This document shows, piece after piece, positions 33,627-43,486 of a stretch of 64,000 nt of DNA. The notes beneath the pieces were generated by a model that worked only from the letters and a program-made list of their open reading frames with translations, was not told the DNA's origin and made no database searches. This DNA is from Thiomicrorhabdus sp. Kp2 (GTDB lineage: Bacteria > Pseudomonadota > Gammaproteobacteria > Thiomicrospirales > Thiomicrospiraceae), in assembly GCF_000478585.1 (NCBI RefSeq), contig NZ_ARWI01000001.1, forward strand, positions 2,294,001-2,358,000, in the 5' to 3' direction. Position numbers and translations under genes: made by a program. Numbering within the stretch: position 1 is the first letter of the stretch; each line of letters starts with the position of its first letter.

Positions 33627-34310
33627 ATGGAAAAAACCCAAGCACAAATTTTACGCCACCACGGTGGTGATGCTGAACATGCTCGTAAGATGATTACCGA
33701 AACCTATGCACGTCGTCACAATGTCGATTTTTGGGAGTTTTGGAATGCACAAATGGGCAGTGCAATCAGCAAAGGTGATGTTCTTTTAGACTTAGGTGCA
33801 GGCATAGGACAATTTGTGGAAGACTTGGCGATTCGTTACCCAGAGAACACGGTTGTAGGCATTGATGCCGCCGAGTATATGTTAACCGCTCAAGTGAGTT
33901 TGCCAGAAAACGCTCGTATGCTAAAAGACGACTTAAACGAGCCAACATCAAACATTGGCGATAACAAAGTGGCCAGTGTAATGGCCAATATGTTGGTGCA
34001 CGAATTACCGCAACCTATCAATATGTTTAAGGCTATTCACAAGTGGCTAAAACCAGGCGGGCGGTTTTGTATTATCGATTTAGTTCGCCAACCATTAGCG
34101 GACTATTTAACCCACAAATATCCAAATGCCGAGTTGTTTAATAACGATGTGAACCGTGATGAAATTGAAGACGTGTTTGAACACTTTCTAGAGCACAACC
34201 GATACCATGCCGATGATATTATTTTTATGCTCAAATCATTAGGTTTCAAACTAATCGAAAACACCCCGCAACGTGATGGGCGGTTTGTGCGTATTGTGGT
34301 TGAGAAGTAG
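33627..34310 (+). CDS. Class I SAM-dependent methyltransferase
   Basis: A 227-residue methyltransferase. SAM-binding motif I is LLDLGAGIGQFVEDLA, motif II region VVGIDAAEYML, and the post-motif strand GGRFCIIDLVRQP. The start at ATG 33627 has AGAGAG upstream and begins MEKTQAQILRHHGG; a GTG at 33585 is less likely. The substrate is not evident. It follows the AddA-like gene by 52 bases and may share its message, but a functional link is unsupported. Confidence 0.82.
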   Translation: MEKTQAQILRHHGGDAEHARKMITETYARRHNVDFWEFWNAQMGSAISKGDVLLDLGAGIGQFVEDLAIRYPENTVVGIDAAEYMLTAQVSLPENARMLKDDLNEPTSNIGDNKVASVMANMLVHELPQPINMFKAIHKWLKPGGRFCIIDLVRQPLADYLTHKYPNAELFNNDVNRDEIEDVFEHFLEHNRYHADDIIFMLKSLGFKLIENTPQRDGRFVRIVVEK

Positions 34311-34365
34311 GTTTTTATTCTGGATTTGCCCAGTGCTCACAAAGTATTAATAGCCACAGGGCATG

Positions 34366-34375
34366 CCAGGCCTGG
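34366..34375. repeat. Palindrome CCAGGCCTGG, intergenic copy
   Basis: Full copy 56 bases after the methyltransferase stop, followed closely by a T-run (34379-34385). The palindrome arms are too short on their own for a firm terminator call. It is the last copy before a 6.5-kb stretch without any. Confidence 0.8.
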
Positions 34376-34514
34376 TAGTTTTTTTAGGTTTAAGCTGGAA
34401 ACTACTCGATTTGAGTATCGCTTGCGAAGTGATTTGTGGAATGAGTGGGTGGGTTAGAGTGTTAGAACGGTTCTGAAGAACATAACTATTAGAACATAAT
34501 TATTTAGAAAAGTT

Positions 34515-34545
34515 AAAAAGGCTAACCAGTTGGTTAGCCTTTTTA
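34515..34545 (-). terminator. Terminator of the autotransporter gene
   Basis: GGCTAACCA (34520-34528) and TGGTTAGCC (34531-34539) pair, flanked by A-run on the left and T-run on the right, so the hairpin works for either strand. It lies 10 bases beyond the autotransporter stop and also ends any read-through from the left. Confidence 0.9.
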
Positions 34546-34554
34546 TTTGATTGC

Positions 34555-37443
34555 TTAGAACGGTATTCTAATATTTGCTGATACTGTTTGGTCTAAATAG
34601 TTGTCACGACTATTTAGGTTGTATTTAGCAGATAATTCTGTACCACTTTGGCTATTGTATTTTGCTCCAAAACCAGCTTGGTAAACACGTTCGCTCGGTT
34701 TAATTCCATCGGTAGTGAAGGTTGCCCCTGTACCTTGTAATGATGAGGTAACAGATGCTTTGTCTGTCGAAAAGTCATGACCAATCGCAGCACTACCAAA
34801 TATCATCATATTGTCAGAAGTAGCGTATGATAATTTAGCTCCAATGCTCGTTACTAAGCTATCGTAGGTTTGATTTTTTACATCTAAGTTTAATGCACCA
34901 GCACCTTTTTCAGAGTAGCTGTCTACATCTACTTTATGGTAATCCACATTAGCGGTGGCTGCAAAATCTAACTTATCGTTCAAAGCGAAGTGCTTTTCTA
35001 ATTCAGCATTAACATGGGTGTGTGTGCTGCCATAAGATGATGAAGCAATACTGTTGTTAAAAAGTGTTCTTTTAGTATCGTAATCAGACTTGCCTATGGT
35101 AAGGCTACCGTTAGCGGTTAGTGTGTTAGATAGGTTTTTTGTACCATAAACCGATAGTTGATAAGAGCCCACATCGGTAGAGTAACCACCGATTGATTGT
35201 TTGCTTGTTACATCACTATTTGCGGTCGATAGCGCAACGCCAACTTCTGTTGATGGCGATAGTTGACCATCTACACCAATGACAATACCTTTTGAATCGA
35301 CTTCATAACCTGCCACACCGTCTTGTTTGTTTTGCTCTGCCCAGTTGCCAAATGGTTGAATCCAGAAGTTTTTATCACTTAGAGTGTCTCCACCATTCAT
35401 TCCTCGGCTAGTTAAACTTTGCAGGTAGTCACTACGCTCACCAATAATTGTCATAGCTTGTGAAGCACCAAAAACAGCTTGCTGACCTGCATTGTTAGAT
35501 GCTGGAGCCAATGATTCAACCGCATTAGCAAGCTGTTGTTCAGTAGAATACTGCCCTAGGCCACTTAAACCTACTGCCTGATCAAGCTGCGCATTACCTG
35601 TGGTACCGTTATTAGCAAAATCATTCTGCAAGCCTTGCAAAATAGGAGCAATACCTTGTGCAGTAGTTGAGCCAGTATTTGTCACGGCGGTAACAAGGTT
35701 ACCCGTAGTTGAACCACCCGTGTTACCCGTGTTAGTTGTACCTGAGGACTCACCCGCACCTGTTGTTAACTCAAGGTCTAGGTCGCTCGCATTTCTAACC
35801 GTATTAAAATCATATGACGCAGAGTTATCTGTAATGGCAAAAGTACCGTAGTTAATTGCGGTTGTGCTTCCAGTGGAGATTACATCTTGAAACACATTAC
35901 CGTCTGACAAAACACCACTCTGCTGAACATCAATATTCATGGTGGTGTTATCTAAATCAACATCCCCATCAACATAAAGCTTTCCATAGGTAGTGTTGTT
36001 AACAATAACAACATCAATATCACCACCGCTACCAGTGAAATCGCTGAAAAACTGTGGATTAGTATTAGGGTTGGCACTTACAGTACCCCCAGTTGCAGAG
36101 GCCGCATTAGGATTTAATACCAATGTACCGCCATTAAGAATGACGTTTGCTGCATGTATTTGCTGGTTAGCAAACGGGGTATAGGTAGCACCGCTATCAA
36201 AAACAACGTCGGCATCACCTACTTGGAATTGACCATCAAAAACAGCGGTGTTGTTACCGCCAATTTCCACTTGGTTTAATGCACCTGTTGCTGAAACAAA
36301 ATTACCAACAATTTCGCCTGAGTTAATAAACTTATCGATATTTGCACCTGTAGTAATTTCAACTGCAGTATTACCTGCTGAGATGATAGTGCCGTTTGCC
36401 CCACCATTCTCTATGATGGTGGTACCATTACCAGCATTCGGCCCCAAATAAAGTGCCTGAGCGCTATTCCAATTTTCAATCAGCCCGCTATTAACTAGAT
36501 ACCCGGTTATAGTGCCGCCCGCAACATGAATCGTTGCATCGAGACTGTCATTATTGAATATGTCTCCATTATTCGTTAAGTTATTGATTGACGCACTGCT
36601 TTCAAGCTTTATTGCTGAGCCACCGCCGTTAACTGTAGTAAAGATTTGACCATTACCCTGGTTCGTAAACGTCCCGATGGTTGACCCATCCGTAATTCGG
36701 ACTACGGGAAACCCAACAGCTGAATTCGAAGAGCGAATATCGCCATCGTTTTGGAACGTTGTAATGTCTGTACGGCCAACATAAATGGCTGAATTATTTG
36801 TACCATTAATAGTGGCATTATTGTTATTTTGCAATGTCGTTACAGTACTGTTACTTGTCGCTGAACTGCTGTAGTCACCATCAAGATTGATACCTACAAC
36901 ATCACCTACAATGCTTCCATCGTTCATTATTGATGTAACAGAAAAAGGTGTTCCATCATCTTCAATTGATATTGCATTAGTACCATTTATCATTGAGCTA
37001 GCGTTATTAACAATCTCTAAATTAGTGGTTCCATTAGCATAAATACCAGGACCGCTAGTTCCTGAATTATCACCGTCGATCATTGATGAATTGTTAATGG
37101 TTAAGTTGCTTGTTTGTGAAGCATTGATTACCGCTGCAAAACCTGATGTTGCTGGGTCTAGTAATAACGAGCCATTGTTATTAATGGTGACACCAGAAGT
37201 GCTTCCAGCATTAATTGCGTAAGCATCTGTAGTGGTAATTGAAGCGCCATTATCGACAGTAATAGTGTCATTGTCTGCTGCAGTACAAGTGGTTGTTAGT
37301 GCACCTGTAACCGGGAGAGATGCACAAGAACCTGTAGCGGCTTGTACATTCATTGAGTACATGGCAAGCAGTACTGAACTTGCTAAAGTTTTGAGTGCAA
37401 ACTTTTGCGTTGTAATTTTTTTTGTTGATTGCATTGAAATCAT
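34555..37443 (-). CDS. Type Va autotransporter (beta-helix passenger, outer-membrane barrel)
   Basis: A 962-residue autotransporter. The signal peptide has a basic leader and hydrophobic core (LASSVLLAMYSMNVQA). The passenger, about residues 40-590, is rich in Asn, Gly, Thr and Ser with repeated short strands such as ITTDAYAINAGST and NNGSIVGD, typical of a beta-helix. The C-terminal ~270 residues form the barrel (FWIQPFGNWAEQNKQDGVAGY onwards, split by strands) ending in Phe. No catalytic triad was recognised in the passenger, so an adhesin-like role is more likely than protease. Start at 37443 or at the Met three codons later. Two LuxR regulators are divergent from it. Confidence 0.88.
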   Translation of the reverse strand: MISMQSTKKITTQKFALKTLASSVLLAMYSMNVQAATGSCASLPVTGALTTTCTAADNDTITVDNGASITTTDAYAINAGSTSGVTINNNGSLLLDPATSGFAAVINASQTSNLTINNSSMIDGDNSGTSGPGIYANGTTNLEIVNNASSMINGTNAISIEDDGTPFSVTSIMNDGSIVGDVVGINLDGDYSSSATSNSTVTTLQNNNNATINGTNNSAIYVGRTDITTFQNDGDIRSSNSAVGFPVVRITDGSTIGTFTNQGNGQIFTTVNGGGSAIKLESSASINNLTNNGDIFNNDSLDATIHVAGGTITGYLVNSGLIENWNSAQALYLGPNAGNGTTIIENGGANGTIISAGNTAVEITTGANIDKFINSGEIVGNFVSATGALNQVEIGGNNTAVFDGQFQVGDADVVFDSGATYTPFANQQIHAANVILNGGTLVLNPNAASATGGTVSANPNTNPQFFSDFTGSGGDIDVVIVNNTTYGKLYVDGDVDLDNTTMNIDVQQSGVLSDGNVFQDVISTGSTTAINYGTFAITDNSASYDFNTVRNASDLDLELTTGAGESSGTTNTGNTGGSTTGNLVTAVTNTGSTTAQGIAPILQGLQNDFANNGTTGNAQLDQAVGLSGLGQYSTEQQLANAVESLAPASNNAGQQAVFGASQAMTIIGERSDYLQSLTSRGMNGGDTLSDKNFWIQPFGNWAEQNKQDGVAGYEVDSKGIVIGVDGQLSPSTEVGVALSTANSDVTSKQSIGGYSTDVGSYQLSVYGTKNLSNTLTANGSLTIGKSDYDTKRTLFNNSIASSSYGSTHTHVNAELEKHFALNDKLDFAATANVDYHKVDVDSYSEKGAGALNLDVKNQTYDSLVTSIGAKLSYATSDNMMIFGSAAIGHDFSTDKASVTSSLQGTGATFTTDGIKPSERVYQAGFGAKYNSQSGTELSAKYNLNSRDNYLDQTVSANIRIPF

Positions 37444-37776
37444 CCTTTTGCGAATGGTTAATTTGATTTTATTAAGGTTTTAGAGTCTTTTAGAGAGTCT
37501 GTTCAAGCGAATGAATAAACGGATTATTTTTACTTAACGAATTCTAGTGGTAGGTTGATTTCTTATAAATAGGGGAACACGGCTACTGAGTTAATAAAAA
37601 TAAGGGTTACCACGTACTCTATTAGTGACGCAGGACAGTGTTATTTATTAATTATTAGCTGAATAATCTTAGAGCTGTTTTATGTTTTGGCTTTGTAATT
37701 AAGGGGGTTAACATTGAGCCTATGTTTGCATGACGTGTTAAGTCCCTTGATTATGAAGGGTTTTATATAGGGGATA
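37444..37776. other. Divergent promoter region, autotransporter/LuxR
   Basis: AT-rich 333-bp gap with no gene. It must carry promoters for both the leftward autotransporter and the rightward LuxR genes. CCCTT (37744-37748) and AAGGG (37756-37760) form a small hairpin followed by TTTT right before the first LuxR start, possibly an attenuator. I see no clear LuxR-type palindrome. Confidence 0.5.
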
Positions 37777-38889
37777 TTGGCTAGTGTACGTAATATTATG
37801 GGCGTTTTTAGTGGTATTTTTATTTGCATTTATTTATATTTATACAGGAGGTTAAAGCGTAGAGATAAAAATAGGAAGCAAAAAGTGCACAAACAAGCTA
37901 ATGAGCTGGTTTTAAAAATATACCGCTTGGCATATAAAACCAGTATTGCAGACTTTAAAAAGCAGTGCTTTGAACTTTTAGCCGATGTGTTGGATATTCA
38001 GAGTGGTACTTGGATTACACGTTCAGAAAAAGATATTCTTTTTTACGAAAATGATAGTTTTACATATGCTTTACCAGAGGGCTTTATGGAAGATTACCAT
38101 CACTTGTCCTCGGTATCAGAACAGGTAAACCAGGTTTTCTCAGTGCTTTTGGGTAATCAACGCAAAACTTTAGATATATTAGATGTGGTTCCCTCTGAGG
38201 ATTGGTTTGATTCAGAAATGTACCGTTTGTATTGTGATAAGTTTAATTTACATCACTCTTTGATGACTGTTGATATCAATCCAATTAATCAAGTAATGAA
38301 TCTGATTACCGTTGCACGGCATAACCCTGCTCATGGGTTTACTGAGGAAGAGAAGTCTTTGAAAGAATTTATCTTTCCCAATTTAATTGAAGCTCTAAGA
38401 ATCAATCTTTTAAATGCATTACATTCTGGGGTAGATTTTGCAGGTTCTTATCGTGCTGTGATGGACCGATATGGTAATGTTATTGAAGCTGAAGATGGTT
38501 TTTTAGCGTTGTTGAGTTCTAAGCAGCTTGCTTTAGGGTCTAAAGTGTTAATTGATTTTGAATCTCATCACCGTACTGTAGAAATCAAAGGCCTAAGTTT
38601 TCGTTACAAAAACCATAATGGTTTAGTTTTTGTAGAGGTTGATTTATCAAGCTTAATTGAAATTCTTAGCGAGCGCAAAGTTGAAGTTGCTCAATTACTT
38701 CTTAATGGCTTATCTAATAAAGAGATTGGAAATAAGTTGGGTTTGTCTCCTAATACAGTTCATAACCATCTAAAAGAAATTTATAAGACGATTGGTGTAG
38801 CGTCTCGTACACAAGCAATTGGTTGTTTGTGCCGTTTTGATTTAACAGGTAGGTTGACACAAAATGTTGAACAATCTAGGTTAAGTTAA
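37777..38889 (+). CDS. LuxR-type HTH regulator with N-terminal membrane anchor
   Basis: A 370-residue regulator. An N-terminal hydrophobic segment (GVFSGIFICIYLYLY) followed by a strongly basic stretch (RRLKRRDKNRKQK) suggests a membrane anchor with the rest inside the cell. A central ~200-residue region is unrecognised, and the C-terminus is a GerE/LuxR helix-turn-helix (QLLLNGLSNKEIGNKLGLS then NTVHNHLKEIYKTIGV). The start is probably TTG at 37777 with GGGGA upstream; ATG at 37798 would still keep the helix. It is followed at once by a second LuxR-type gene and is divergent from the autotransporter. Confidence 0.75.
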   Translation: MASVRNIMGVFSGIFICIYLYLYRRLKRRDKNRKQKVHKQANELVLKIYRLAYKTSIADFKKQCFELLADVLDIQSGTWITRSEKDILFYENDSFTYALPEGFMEDYHHLSSVSEQVNQVFSVLLGNQRKTLDILDVVPSEDWFDSEMYRLYCDKFNLHHSLMTVDINPINQVMNLITVARHNPAHGFTEEEKSLKEFIFPNLIEALRINLLNALHSGVDFAGSYRAVMDRYGNVIEAEDGFLALLSSKQLALGSKVLIDFESHHRTVEIKGLSFRYKNHNGLVFVEVDLSSLIEILSERKVEVAQLLLNGLSNKEIGNKLGLSPNTVHNHLKEIYKTIGVASRTQAIGCLCRFDLTGRLTQNVEQSRLS

Positions 38890-38891
38890 AA

Positions 38892-39806
38892 ATGCCCTTC
38901 TTAAAATTAAAAGAACCAAATCCTGTTAATAGATTAGGTGAGTGCATAGCCTCCTTCTATCATGCTTCTCAATCACCTTGTAGAGAGCAATTTCAACGTG
39001 CATGTATTAATGCTATTAATAATATTACTCCGTTAATTCGCTTTTCTTGGAAAATTGATGCCCAACAAAATCATATTCATTTAAGTAAAAACCAATGGTT
39101 TGCAATATTTGAAGGTGAAGGGAAGATAAATATTGAATTTGTTGTAAACGATTTAAGTACAGTTGTTCCCATACTTTCCGAAGATAGAGAATTTATTTCT
39201 TCAAATAAAATATTTCATAAAAAGATTATAAGTTGTCATGGAGCGAGGCATTATTTTGATATTGAACAAGTTTGTGAAAATGACCTTTTGTCAAAAAAGG
39301 AACAAACTGAATTAACAATGTTTTTGCCTCATTTAGCGGAAGCTTTGCGTTTGCATATTTTATCGCAGTTTCAAAAGGCATGGAAATGTGATGGATATTT
39401 AGGCGCTATTATAGAAAGCGGTGGCCATGAGATTTATATGGAACCTTTTTTTTATGAAAAACTCAAACAAGCTGAACTTTCTAAGAAAGAGATTTTTAAA
39501 ATGAGGGATTTCTTGGGTCAGAAATCATTTTTTTTATACAAAGACTTGTTGTTTGGTATCGAAAAAATTCTAGATGTCTATTTCATAAGAATGTTAGTTT
39601 TTAATGGTGTGTTAAGCAACTTGACGCTAAAAGAGAAACAGATTTGCTTTTATGTCAACGCAGCGTTTTCAAATACCGATATATCAAAGGCGTTAAAAAT
39701 ATCAGAAAAAACGGTTGAGAACCATTTGAGCAATATTTATCAAAAAATAAACATTGATTCTAGAGCCAAGCTCGTTTCTAGCTTGTATTCAGCAATAAAA
39801 GAATGA
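38892..39806 (+). CDS. Second LuxR-type HTH regulator
   Basis: A 304-residue protein, two bases after the previous gene's stop. The C-terminal HTH reads LTLKEKQICFYVNAAFSNTD then ISKALKISEKTVENHLSNIY. The N-terminal ~230 residues share the general layout of the first regulator but lack the membrane segment. Its codons are strikingly A/T-rich compared with neighbours outside this block. The two may form a heteromeric pair controlling the divergent autotransporter; that is inference. Confidence 0.75.
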   Translation: MPFLKLKEPNPVNRLGECIASFYHASQSPCREQFQRACINAINNITPLIRFSWKIDAQQNHIHLSKNQWFAIFEGEGKINIEFVVNDLSTVVPILSEDREFISSNKIFHKKIISCHGARHYFDIEQVCENDLLSKKEQTELTMFLPHLAEALRLHILSQFQKAWKCDGYLGAIIESGGHEIYMEPFFYEKLKQAELSKKEIFKMRDFLGQKSFFLYKDLLFGIEKILDVYFIRMLVFNGVLSNLTLKEKQICFYVNAAFSNTDISKALKISEKTVENHLSNIYQKINIDSRAKLVSSLYSAIKE

Positions 39807-39910
39807 AAGTTACCTATAAATATTATATTTATAATTATATTTATATTCGCCTCAATAAATTACCCTTGCTCTTCTTTCTTTATGCAAAGCTCGGTTTAGA
39901 TTTCTAGAAG

Positions 39911-40798
39911 ATGAATTTTCTGATGACTTTTCGACAACTACCTTTATTAGGTCTATTCTTTTTCTGTACTGCATTGCTTGGTTGCGCAGGCGTGCCGAAT
40001 GTTTCTGAAAGACAAAAATATGCAAATGTTTTAGTTAAAAAAAATGAATGGCAAAAGCAAGTTATTAGAACAAAACGCTTTGATTTAATCGCTTTTTTAC
40101 CAAATGTTGTACACAACCATAAAAGTGACGTGCTTACCGTTTACATTGAAGGTGATGGACTTGCTTGGATATCACCGAATGTTCCTTCTCATAATCCAAC
40201 CCCTATCAATCCTTTAGCGCTAAAACTGGCCATAAATGACAGTAGTGGTAATGTGGCATACTTAGCGAGACCTTGCCAGTTTGTTGAAAGCACCTCAAGA
40301 AACTGTGAATCCAAACTTTGGAAAGAGGCACGGTTTTCAACTCCTGTGATTGAGGCTATGAATCAAGCCGTTCAGCAGCTTAAAGAGCAGACGATGACCA
40401 AAAAAATTAGACTCATTGGTTATTCTGGTGGAGGCGCTATAGCCACATTGTTGGCTGAAAAAAGAAAAGATATAGAGATGCTTATTACCGTTGCAGGCAC
40501 TCTTGACCATCGCGCATGGACGCACTTTCATAAAATATCTCCATTAACAGAATCGCTTAACCCAATTGATGAGATTCATAAGCTGAAAAGTATCCCCCAG
40601 GTACATTTTATTGGTAGTGCAGATCGCATAATTCCAAAAAGTATTACCGAATCGTTTGTGCAAGAAGCAATAAAAAATGAAATAGAGAAAATAACAGTTC
40701 GTGAAATGCCTGGTTACACTCATGTTTGTTGCTGGGTTGGCGAGTGGCGTGCATTGCAACAATCCTTAGAACCTCATGTAAAGAATGAGTTTTATTGA
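39911..40798 (+). CDS. Alpha/beta-hydrolase lipoprotein
   Basis: A 295-residue predicted lipoprotein. The lipobox is LLGC in FFFCTALLGCAG, giving a lipid-modified Cys. The hydrolase core carries YIEGDGLAWI as the oxyanion region, the nucleophile elbow GYSGGGA, an acid near IGSADRIIP and a late His in GYTHVCCW. Substrate unknown; esterase or peptidase are possible. It sits 104 bases after the LuxR pair on the same strand and may be a target of them. Start is 39911 or the Met at 39923. Confidence 0.8.
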   Translation: MNFLMTFRQLPLLGLFFFCTALLGCAGVPNVSERQKYANVLVKKNEWQKQVIRTKRFDLIAFLPNVVHNHKSDVLTVYIEGDGLAWISPNVPSHNPTPINPLALKLAINDSSGNVAYLARPCQFVESTSRNCESKLWKEARFSTPVIEAMNQAVQQLKEQTMTKKIRLIGYSGGGAIATLLAEKRKDIEMLITVAGTLDHRAWTHFHKISPLTESLNPIDEIHKLKSIPQVHFIGSADRIIPKSITESFVQEAIKNEIEKITVREMPGYTHVCCWVGEWRALQQSLEPHVKNEFY

Positions 40799-40867
40799 GT
40801 CGAGTTTAAGGGTGGTTATTTAAAAAATAAGGAGTTTTAAAAGAGGGGCAAATTATTAAGGAGGTTA

Positions 40868-40877
40868 CCAGGCCTGG
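40868..40877. repeat. Palindrome CCAGGCCTGG, intergenic copy
   Basis: Full copy in context TTACCAGGCCTGGCAA, between the lipoprotein hydrolase and ppsA. It marks the return of the palindrome after the autotransporter block. Confidence 0.8.
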
Positions 40878-41059
40878 CAATCCCTTGGCCAACAATACTT
40901 TGTGAGCGTTGGGTAAAGCCTTTTCTATTGTCTATATTCGTAATCATTTACATTTCTTATTTATGAATTACAAAATTGTTATGCATTTCTTACTTAATCA
41001 GCGTAAGCTTAAAATCAGCATTTATTGAACTGCAACTCACTTCTTTAAGGAGGCTAACC

Positions 41060-43486
41060 ATGTCTGAACAAGGTCGTTCTGAACAAGCTAAATACATTCT
41101 TTTCTTTGATGAAATAGGAATTAATGACATTCCCATTGTTGGTGGTAAAAATGCTTCTTTGGGTGAGATGTATCAACAACTGACACCGCAAGGTGTTCCG
41201 ATTCCGAATGGCTTTGCGATTACGGCTGAGGCTTATCGTTGGATTTTGACAGAAAATAATCTATGGCCTGAAGTGACTCAGATTTTGGATGGCTTAGACC
41301 CAGAAAATTCAATTGAATTGCAAAAGCGTGGAGCGCAGTTACGTGGGTTGGTTTATAACGCAAAATTGCCTGATGACCTGTATCAGGAGATGGTTGAAGC
41401 TTATGAAAAACTGATTAAAGAATATGCTGGAAATGTCTCTCTGGCGGTAAGAAGTTCGGCCACCGCGGAAGATTTGCCTACTGCAAGTTTTGCTGGTCAG
41501 CAAGATACTTATCTAAATATATCAGGCCTGCAAGCTTATATAGATGCTTGCCGTCACTGTTTTGCCAGCTTGTTTACCGATAGAGCGATTCACTACCGAA
41601 GTGATCAAGGTTTTAATCATCTTGAAGTGGCTTTATCAATTGGGGTGCAAGTGATGGTGCGTTCAGATGTGGCTTCGTCTGGGGTTATGTTTACCATTGA
41701 TACGGAAACAGGTTTTGAAGATGTGATTTTAATCACTGGTGCTTATGGACTCGGTGAGAATGTGGTACAGGGTGCGGTTGACCCAGATGAGTTTTATGTA
41801 CATAAAGAGACGTTTCAAAAAGGCTTTAGAAGTGTTTTTAAACGTCACTTAGGCACTAAAAAAATCAAAATGGTCTATGCCAGTGATGTTAACCGTAGAG
41901 AGCCTGTTCATAATATTCCAACAGCGGTTTCTGAACAGAAGCAATTTTGTATTACGGATACTGAAGCGATTAAATTGGCCGAATACGCAATCAAAATTGA
42001 GAATCACTATAGTGATCATGCTAACCAACACCGCCCTATGGATATTGAGTGGGCTAAAGATGGTATTACAGGGGAGTTGTTTATTGTACAAGCTCGCCCA
42101 GAAACGGTGGCTTCTCAACAATCTAATATGGTGTTAAAGCAATACCAATTAGTTGAAAAACCAGCTGAAAGCTTGACCGTTGGTCGCTCTGTGGGCGCTA
42201 AAATCGCTTATGGTCGAGTGCGAGTAATTGAGTCGGTGGAGCATTTAAATGAGTTTCAAGAAGGTGAGGTTTTAGTTTCTGATATTACGACGCCAGACTG
42301 GGAGCCTGTGATGAAAATGGCCTCGGCTTTAGTGACTAATCGTGGTGGACGTACTTGTCATGCGGCAATTATTTCACGTGAGTTGGGTATCCCAGCGGTG
42401 GTGGGTACTGGCAATGCAACTGAGTTAATGAAAAGCGGTGAGGTGGTGACCGTGAGTTGTGCTGAAGGGGATGAAGGGCATGTTTATACAGGTCAAGTGC
42501 CTTATGAAATCATAGAAACGGATTTATCTCATATTGAAAAACCTAAGACTAAAATTCTAATGAACCTCGCCAATCCTGAGATGGCCTTTAGGGTGAATAA
42601 ATTGCCTAATGATGGTTTGGGTCTGGCACGTATGGAATTTATTATTAACAATAAAATCCAAATACACCCGCAAGCTTTATTGCAACCCGAGAAGGTAGAG
42701 AGTGAAGAGGACAAAGCTAAAATCAAACAGCTCACCGAAGGTTTTAGCAGTGGCAAAGACTTTTTTGTGCGTAAGCTTTCAGAAGGAATTGGTACGCTTG
42801 CAGCGGGTTTTTATCCTAAACCTGTTGTGGTGAGGTTGTCCGATTTTAAAACCAATGAATATGCCAGTTTAATTGGCGGTAAAGCGTTTGAATTAAAAGA
42901 AGAAAACCCAATGATTGGCTTTAGAGGAGCAGCACGTTATAACGATGCCTCATTTAAAGAAAGTTTTGCAATGGAGTGTACGGCCTTAAAGCAGGTTAGA
43001 GAGGTGATGGGTTTTGACAATATCATTATTATGGTGCCATTTTGCCGCCGTGTTGAGGAGGCCAAAAGTGTAATTGATACGCTGGCACAAAATGGTTTAG
43101 TGCGCGGTAGTAATGGCTTAAAAATCTATATGATGTGTGAGATTCCAAATAATGTATTGTTAATGGATGAGTTCTCAGAATATTTTGATGGCTTTTCAAT
43201 TGGTACCAATGATTTAGCACAGCTGGTGTTAGGGGTGGATCGTGATTCTGCCAAGGTCGCTTACAATTATGATGAGCGTGACCCTGGGGTGAAAAAAATG
43301 GTACAAATGGCCATAGAGGGTGCAAAACGCAATGGCAAACATATTAGTTTGTGTGGCCAAGCCCCTTCCGATTATCCTGAGTTTGCGGAATTTTTGGTTG
43401 AGTTAGGGATTGATGCTATGAGTTTAAATCCCGATTCGATTTTAGCAACCTTACCGAGTATTTTGGCTGCGGAAGCTAAACAGTAA
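41060..43486 (+). CDS. ppsA: Phosphoenolpyruvate synthase
   Basis: Makes phosphoenolpyruvate from pyruvate and ATP for gluconeogenesis. The 808-residue protein has the ATP-grasp N-terminal domain (VGGKNASLGEMYQQL; VRSSATAEDLPTASFAGQQ), the phosphohistidine domain GGRTCHAAIISRELGIP with H434, and the PEP-binding barrel ending CGQAPSDYPEFAEFL and SLNPDSI. The ATG at 41060 has AAGGAGG just upstream and is preferred over a start at 40976. It is monocistronic, convergent with yraN. Confidence 0.96.
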   Translation: MSEQGRSEQAKYILFFDEIGINDIPIVGGKNASLGEMYQQLTPQGVPIPNGFAITAEAYRWILTENNLWPEVTQILDGLDPENSIELQKRGAQLRGLVYNAKLPDDLYQEMVEAYEKLIKEYAGNVSLAVRSSATAEDLPTASFAGQQDTYLNISGLQAYIDACRHCFASLFTDRAIHYRSDQGFNHLEVALSIGVQVMVRSDVASSGVMFTIDTETGFEDVILITGAYGLGENVVQGAVDPDEFYVHKETFQKGFRSVFKRHLGTKKIKMVYASDVNRREPVHNIPTAVSEQKQFCITDTEAIKLAEYAIKIENHYSDHANQHRPMDIEWAKDGITGELFIVQARPETVASQQSNMVLKQYQLVEKPAESLTVGRSVGAKIAYGRVRVIESVEHLNEFQEGEVLVSDITTPDWEPVMKMASALVTNRGGRTCHAAIISRELGIPAVVGTGNATELMKSGEVVTVSCAEGDEGHVYTGQVPYEIIETDLSHIEKPKTKILMNLANPEMAFRVNKLPNDGLGLARMEFIINNKIQIHPQALLQPEKVESEEDKAKIKQLTEGFSSGKDFFVRKLSEGIGTLAAGFYPKPVVVRLSDFKTNEYASLIGGKAFELKEENPMIGFRGAARYNDASFKESFAMECTALKQVREVMGFDNIIIMVPFCRRVEEAKSVIDTLAQNGLVRGSNGLKIYMMCEIPNNVLLMDEFSEYFDGFSIGTNDLAQLVLGVDRDSAKVAYNYDERDPGVKKMVQMAIEGAKRNGKHISLCGQAPSDYPEFAEFLVELGIDAMSLNPDSILATLPSILAAEAKQ

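Follow-up and report, generated by a model that had tools for sequence, protein, structure and literature searches.

A LuxR-type regulator pair and a candidate operator common to exchangeable surface-protein genes in Thiomicrorhabdus

Does Thiomicrorhabdus sp. Kp2, a member of a genus of sulfur-oxidising chemolithoautotrophs, possess a membrane-anchored LuxR regulator that works with a soluble neighbour as a surface-sensing switch? The question is raised by a 64,000-nt stretch (hereafter, the window) of its 2.73-Mb, single-contig genome. There, two regulator genes that we name luxR1 and luxR2 lie 2 bp apart on the + strand, diverge from an autotransporter gene, and are followed by a gene for a lipoprotein-type hydrolase (Table 1). 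The original prediction for this locus had recognised all four genes, and we agree with these assignments: both regulators score above the Pfam cut-off (23.5 bits) for the C-terminal LuxR/NarL-type helix-turn-helix (HTH; GerE, PF00196), the autotransporter has the beta-domain of type V systems (residues 693-942; cut-off 26 bits), and the hydrolase matches DLH at 24.9 bits (cut-off 21) and combines a lipobox with a GxSxG motif, from which its activity is predicted. Our answer to the question itself is that the domains are ordinary and the arrangement is interesting: the rare membrane LuxR protein is probably absent, and a candidate operator common to exchangeable surface-protein genes is present.

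The two regulators are inherited together. Full-length LuxR1 and LuxR2 are found in the same four of 62 family genomes (the window's own included), adjacent every time. The three LuxR1 orthologues are 52-56% identical and belong to the same genus: Thiomicrorhabdus marina 6S2-11 (G029), Thiomicrorhabdus sp. Milos-T2 (G032) and G050. The four genes of the window occur together in only 2/62, so that the autotransporter and the hydrolase are not fixed parts of the system; a lack of co-occurrence, which the original prediction had named as counting against it, thus applies in part.

What accompanies the pair is a repeated DNA element, which we recognised by comparing the divergent regions of the window and Milos-T2. 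In the form ATAGGGG-N5-GGCTA, it has exactly two copies in the whole Kp2 genome, at 37569 and 37767 (W1 and W2), both in the intergenic region between luxR1 and the autotransporter gene. Exact matches to this window-derived pattern in 32 genus genomes number six: the two in the window, two in Milos-T2, and single matches in G022 and G037, inside frames that run without a stop for 861 and 1137 nt, respectively. Neither Milos-T2 copy is more than about 9 kb from the pair: one is in the divergent region, and the other precedes a gene for a secreted-looking protein of 326 amino acids (aa), by about 71 bp if the start is placed as in T. marina. Since the Milos-T2 divergent region holds a further copy with two mismatches, each of the two divergent regions has two copies. 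In the 19-kb T. marina locus, the shortened pattern of ten constant bases, ATAGG-N7-GGCTA, has two exact matches (0.03 expected; 0/200 shuffles reach two), both intergenic: one precedes the 326-aa gene, and the other is between a lipoprotein gene and a FadL gene. With up to two mismatches, the window-derived pattern has three matches in the 19-kb locus of each relative, compared to expectations of 0.83, 0.73 and 0.59; at least three were reached in 8, 8 and 2 of 200 shuffles. We also trained a weight matrix on four sites from the window and Milos-T2; it placed the third Milos-T2 site at the top of its stretch (24.8; the next site scored 12.0), and ranked the two T. marina sites first in theirs (17.1 and 16.1).

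We pooled W1, W2, the three Milos-T2 sites, two sites from T. marina (L067 13386 and 15091) and one from G050 (L068 12509) into a consensus, drawn by eye: ATAGGKRRNATWGGCTA, a 17-bp bipartite element. Left out were L067 14980 and L068 12355 (two mismatches), the weaker matrix matches L067 13135 and L068 12377, and the 2-mismatch matches L069 3754, L068 1527 and L068 4567. The consensus has five exact matches in the 32 genus genomes, all five in pair-carrying genomes and no more than about 10 kb from the two genes, a confinement that is partly by construction, because these five were among the sites from which the consensus was derived. The copies often come as two, 150-250 bp apart, one of which is sometimes weak. 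The two halves of the element are alike on opposite strands (TAGCCWAT and YMCCTAT); its right half resembles the NarL heptamer, TACYYMT, which would suit a LuxR/NarL HTH. The motif is not accounted for by any known RNA element: an Rfam search over 34300-41100 gave one sub-threshold match, MicX at 34506-34652 (22.1 bits versus 75). Scans for sigma-70 promoters yielded promoter-like sites at frequencies not above those in shuffles (1 versus 2.7; 2 versus 4.0).

As far as sequence can establish such things, the pair, its co-inheritance, the element and the element's placement are real, and the regulators are probably tied in function to surface-protein genes through the shared element. We lean, with modest confidence, towards the hypothesis that a soluble LuxR-solo pair acts on this element to control adjacent, exchangeable surface-protein genes. 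LuxR1 and LuxR2 would be cytoplasmic proteins, probably expressed from one co-transcribed operon, with N-terminal domains that presumably recognise either a partner or a small ligand in the cytoplasm. The two regulators, perhaps joined in a heteromer, would bind the 17-bp element and so switch transcription of the adjacent exported-protein genes, whether by activation or by repression. In the window, the autotransporter would be controlled in this way, as would the luxR operon itself through the second copy of the element. Over evolution, the pair and operator would persist while the controlled surface gene changes: in the window and Milos-T2 it would be the autotransporter; in G050, a lipoprotein; and in T. 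marina, lipoprotein/FadL genes and the 326-aa secreted protein. Of the self-contained surface switch that was originally proposed, what survives is the link between the pair and surface-protein genes and the shared element, not the autotransporter and hydrolase as its set components.

Where, then, does LuxR1 begin? Three in-frame starts are available: TTG 37777, ATG 37798 and GTG 37885. The longest reading (37777-38889), with the N-terminus MASVRNIMGVFSGIFICIYLYLYRRLKRRDKNRKQKV, is the source of the supposed membrane anchor: the stretch upstream of GTG 37885 encodes a hydrophobic 17-mer, IMGVFSGIFICIYLYLY (mean Kyte-Doolittle value 2.02), followed by a basic stretch, and both of these features require a start at TTG 37777 or, slightly shorter, at ATG 37798. 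The frame does encode the helix and basic stretch that the original prediction described; the starts of all three orthologues speak against their translation. Neither an N-terminal extension nor a transmembrane segment is found in any of the three. In-frame stops lie 0 (T. marina), 6 (Milos-T2) and 0 (G050) codons upstream of the orthologue ATGs, which align within two residues of GTG 37885; because of these stops, all three orthologues can start only within two residues of that place. A conserved Asn is at position 6 if the window protein starts at GTG 37885, compared to position 8 in T. marina and G050, and 6 in Milos-T2. The GTG start also gives an intergenic region of 441 bp, versus 440 bp in Milos-T2, the sole relative with the same divergent autotransporter.

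Codon usage was also assessed. The gene-trained score for 37780-37884 is -0.342 bits per codon: none of the 113 overlapping 35-codon windows taken from LuxR2 and the body of LuxR1 scores so low (minimum, -0.338). The value falls within the non-coding range, above its median of -0.667 (514 windows). When only synonymous choices were scored, values as low or lower occurred in 17/165 neighbouring gene windows and 8/717 housekeeping windows, and 231/514 non-coding windows fell below the upstream stretch; by this test, the stretch is not separated from neighbouring genes. We conclude that LuxR1 most likely starts at GTG 37885, without a membrane anchor, and that the anchor is probably a start-site artefact. 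As a conserved feature, the anchor is ruled out by the stops and starts of the three orthologues. Together, these indicate that translation begins downstream of the hydrophobic segment, an outcome that the proposal of a membrane-tethered LuxR sensor had itself named beforehand as decisive against it.

What might the N-terminal domains be? Above-cut-off Pfam matches of LuxR1 and LuxR2 are confined to the HTH (in LuxR1, HTH_24 also matches on the same helices), and the earlier impression that the central regions match no nameable domain holds for Pfam at the sequence level. It does not hold for predicted structure. We built AlphaFold2 models from six-row alignments (window, L083 and L084 proteins) with a mean predicted local distance difference test score of 75.6 for LuxR1 and 71.4 for LuxR2. 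The first 28 Foldseek matches of the LuxR1 model in the Protein Data Bank (PDB) are quorum-sensing LuxR-type structures, and residues 2-180 align with the ligand-binding domain of RhlR (7r3h_C; Z 14.6, 3.5 Å, 159 residues aligned; VIA-align). The match to this acyl-homoserine lactone (AHL) receptor fold is not distinctive, because the GAF domain 3k2n scores within one Z unit of it (Z 13.8, 3.6 Å, 165 aligned); phytochrome GAF domains reach about Z 13.4. Thus, in its model, the first domain of LuxR1 is GAF/AHL-receptor-like, in a manner that does not tell the two apart. The strand-strand-helix-strand-strand-strand order of residues 188-253 suggests something like a PAS core. The LuxR2 model matches GAF domains at about Z 10 (Cph1, 8rvx_A: Z 10.7, 4.1 Å, 145 aligned).

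The Pfam autoinducer-binding family, for which the original prediction had suggested a search alongside GAF folds, was not listed for LuxR1 or LuxR2 at E values up to 1, or for four LuxR1 N-terminal regions at E values up to 10 (HMMER filters drop most weak matches). A LuxR1 N-terminal profile had no match in the PDB at E values up to 1; the full LuxR1 profile matched 31 PDB sequences, all through the HTH end. The Asp-Pro pair, conserved ligand-contact residues of AHL receptors, is absent throughout the window LuxR1 and LuxR2 sequences. No LuxI-type synthase was matched in the genome, a result that is not evidence of absence since the control matched 0/14 genomes. The EpsA model (TIGR03020) scored 45.1 and 39.4 bits (cut-off 170), and only over the HTH rather than the full length.

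Several observations weigh against the reading that we favour. Although the exact element is confined to the intergenic region, at up to one mismatch the whole Kp2 genome has four matches, compared to six for a reversed control, and at up to two mismatches the window has two against the 2.88 expected from shuffles. The reversed control of the window-derived pattern has five exact matches in the 32 genus genomes, one of them in G050. W1 itself fails the pooled consensus even within one mismatch, and G050 has no full-consensus match even at that tolerance. The T. marina matrix scores compare with a shuffle 95% point of 15.9 and a maximum of 19.8 (60 shuffles); for G050, the best site, before the lipoprotein gene, scores 15.2 (95% point, 14.5; maximum, 16.3). 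The Milos-T2 site at the 326-aa gene is inside that gene's longest open frame (1215 nt), and precedes the coding sequence only with the start that T. marina suggests. None of the eight best T. marina matrix matches precedes luxR1, so self-control may not be conserved. These points leave room for an alternative that we regard as fairly unlikely: an unlinked regulator other than the pair uses the element, or the element is a general feature of promoters, and the LuxR genes only happen to lie close by. That the pair binds the element is a prediction from sequence, the T. marina sites are nearer to exported-protein genes than to luxR1, and in G020, a genome of another genus, an autotransporter gene and a hydrolase gene adjoin although no full-length LuxR pair was found, which suggests that the surface genes are independent; set against this are the five of five exact consensus copies at pair loci (sites from which the consensus was itself drawn) and the four of six window-derived matches at such loci. 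At up to one mismatch, the consensus has 18 matches: 8 in the four pair genomes, of which 6 are at the locus and none is in G050, and 10 in the remaining 28 genomes; the reversed consensus has 23, of which 1 is in a pair genome. The 1-mismatch sites outside the locus (G029:C77 and G032:C2) suggest no clear regulon. In G050, a 1-mismatch copy of the ten-base pattern before the lipoprotein gene is not beyond chance (2 in the locus, 0.45 expected, 14/200 shuffles), and the zero count in the G020 locus at one mismatch says little, since only 0.36 was expected.

The other alternatives concern what the regulators are. Could LuxR1 truly be membrane-tethered in Kp2, by a lineage-specific extension with a single N-out/C-in helix and basic stretch, so as to be a surface-stress sensor paired with soluble LuxR2? 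We consider this unlikely. The frame upstream of GTG 37885 is stop-free for 36 codons (given how often stops occur locally, the probability of this is about 0.023), which counts against our start; yet the extension is missing from the orthologues, and its codon score is under that of every regulator window, though over the non-coding median. The 17-residue hydrophobic run with its basic flank is plausible, but a 17-mer with a mean hydropathy of at least 1.9 arises in 197/2604 segments of at least 25 aa from shuffled local DNA. A Shine-Dalgarno (SD)-like AGGGG precedes TTG 37777, and its duplex is stronger than that at the GTG (-6.4 versus -4.2 kcal/mol), a further point for the long form; 4.8% of 2000 random window 20-mers attain -6.4 kcal/mol, and the spacing is 3 nt only, inside the element: spacing favours GTG, energy favours TTG. 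Moreover, the TTG and AGGGG belong to W2, and the element also occurs where no such open reading frame exists. We judge it quite unlikely that an operator-bearing leader has been captured as coding in this species, such that loss of stops created a new N-terminal membrane helix with a basic stretch, one of the paired regulators became membrane-tethered, and its start came to lie inside or just after its own operator; were that so, operator binding and translation of the anchored LuxR1 form would be linked. It is very improbable that the two proteins are AHL quorum-sensing receptors that make autotransporter expression follow cell density: the fold match to RhlR, SdiA and LasR ligand domains and the HTH would fit, but the GAF domain that scores almost as well and the unlisted autoinducer-binding family argue against it.

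Turning to the neighbouring genes, full-length matches to the autotransporter are found in the window and, in the same place, in Milos-T2 (67-69% identical); a relative at 26% is present in G020, and only the barrel is matched in G007 and G028. The hydrolase is present in 3/62 family genomes: those of the window, Milos-T2 and G020. In the last of these (84% complete), an autotransporter and a hydrolase (41%) are 3 bp apart (L079 1628-2461 and 2465-5497), and neither LuxR1 nor LuxR2 was found at full length, so the association of the two genes appears to be the older one; given this pairing, the hydrolase may serve the autotransporter itself. In the window, the hydrolase gene begins 104 bp past luxR2, and no full element is present in that gap. 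A lone half-site-like sequence, TTACCTAT, is at 39810-39817 in the same gap. A weak hairpin directly upstream of W2 could attenuate transcripts that enter the luxR operon (Table 1). In T. marina, the pair is near lipoprotein genes, the 326-aa protein gene and a FadL-type porin gene, the latter two being also present in Milos-T2; in G050, the pair is beside a lipoprotein gene. The 326-aa protein has no Pfam match; its genes (L067 12099-13079 and L080 4441-5589; 72% identical) occur in 2/32 genus genomes; each of these carries the LuxR pair, and the window's genome is not one of them. About 2.3 kb upstream of the T. marina pair is a gene whose 1261-aa product has leucine-rich repeats and a signal-like N-terminus (L067 2566-6351).

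Table 1. Features of the luxR1-luxR2 locus (window positions) and, in the last three rows, distant relatives with their divergent partners (positions in their own loci)
Feature	Position	Strand	Basis or remark
Autotransporter, 962 aa, divergent from luxR1	34555..37443	-	PF03797, 164.6 bits
Divergent control region, 441 bp	37444..37884		Milos-T2: 440 bp
Operator candidate W1, ATAGGGGAACACGGCTA	37569..37585	+	125 bp from autotransporter start
Weak terminator-like hairpin, 5-bp stem, T-rich tail	37744..37760	+	1 observed versus 0.3 expected in shuffles
Operator candidate W2, ATAGGGGATATTGGCTA	37767..37783	+	Holds TTG 37777 and SD-like AGGGG of the long reading; Milos-T2 counterparts
Upstream in-frame stretch, earlier read as membrane anchor	37777..37884	+	Probably untranslated leader/promoter DNA
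LuxR1 (regulator 1), GTG start	37885..38889	+	PF00196, 59.3 bits; orthologue starts; AlphaFold2 model; fold match
LuxR1 GAF/AHL-receptor-like domain	about 37885-38427	+	Predicted structure
LuxR1 PAS-like middle segment	about 38446-38643	+	Suggested by strand/helix order alone
LuxR1 HTH	about 38662-38820	+	PF00196
LuxR2 (regulator 2), with smaller GAF-like N-terminal domain	38892..39806	+	PF00196, 52.7 bits; AlphaFold2 model; GAF-fold match
LuxR2 HTH	about 39618-39779	+	PF00196
Lipoprotein-type alpha/beta hydrolase	39911..40798	+	Lipobox LLGC at 22, GYSGG at 170
Distant LuxR relative and divergent partner	L094 7651-8787/8779-11991
Distant LuxR relative and divergent partner	L095 5555-7324/7453-8400
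Distant LuxR relative and divergent partner	L098 6065-7762/7837-8826

Our literature searches found no account of LuxR or autotransporter control in Thiomicrorhabdus, or of this LuxR pair or element in print. Should our preferred reading be true, the LuxR-solo pair and its operator would form a portable control module, the surface-protein cargo of which is exchanged between species; regulators of this sort, which seldom have a known regulon, would also gain a concrete target site. The revised start removes a probable mistake that would otherwise enter the record as a rare LuxR protein with a membrane anchor.

How widely does this type of regulator extend? The N-terminal domain of LuxR1 is matched in 8/369 genomes sampled from the class, the window's included. 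In the other seven, single-copy LuxR relatives have the same N-terminal domain at about 21-30% identity, and none of these seven loci has a LuxR2 relative beside the LuxR1-like gene. In three of the seven, the divergent neighbour of the LuxR gene encodes a Kelch/Ig lipoprotein, a PhoD phosphatase or a DUF7151 protein. This family may thus be prone to divergent control of exported proteins, but the number is small, lacks a control, and depends on gene calls by longest open reading frame.

Membrane LuxR proteins are already in print: DadR, HcdR and CadR of Coriobacteriia are described as membrane-spanning LuxRs with an N-terminal domain of 10-12 transmembrane segments (PMC9734109). On that description, LuxR1 has the LuxR HTH in common with them, and a membrane location only if its anchor is real; its modelled soluble GAF-like domain, with at most one doubtful helix, differs from a domain of 10-12 such segments (PMC9734109). 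Nearer in predicted ligand-domain fold and C-terminal HTH are the AHL-receptor LuxR proteins RhlR, SdiA, QscR and VqsR; the window pair is distinguished from these by its want of a sequence match to the autoinducer family, by the extra PAS-like segment before the HTH, and by its tandem arrangement. CsgD, FimZ and VpsT are LuxR/NarL-type regulators of surface structures with receiver or receiver-like N-termini. The likeness here is confined to the HTH, through which the window proteins match the CsgD and FimZ models, and the LuxR1 profile matches VpsT; unlike these receiver-type regulators, the window pair has GAF-like N-terminal domains in its predicted structures.

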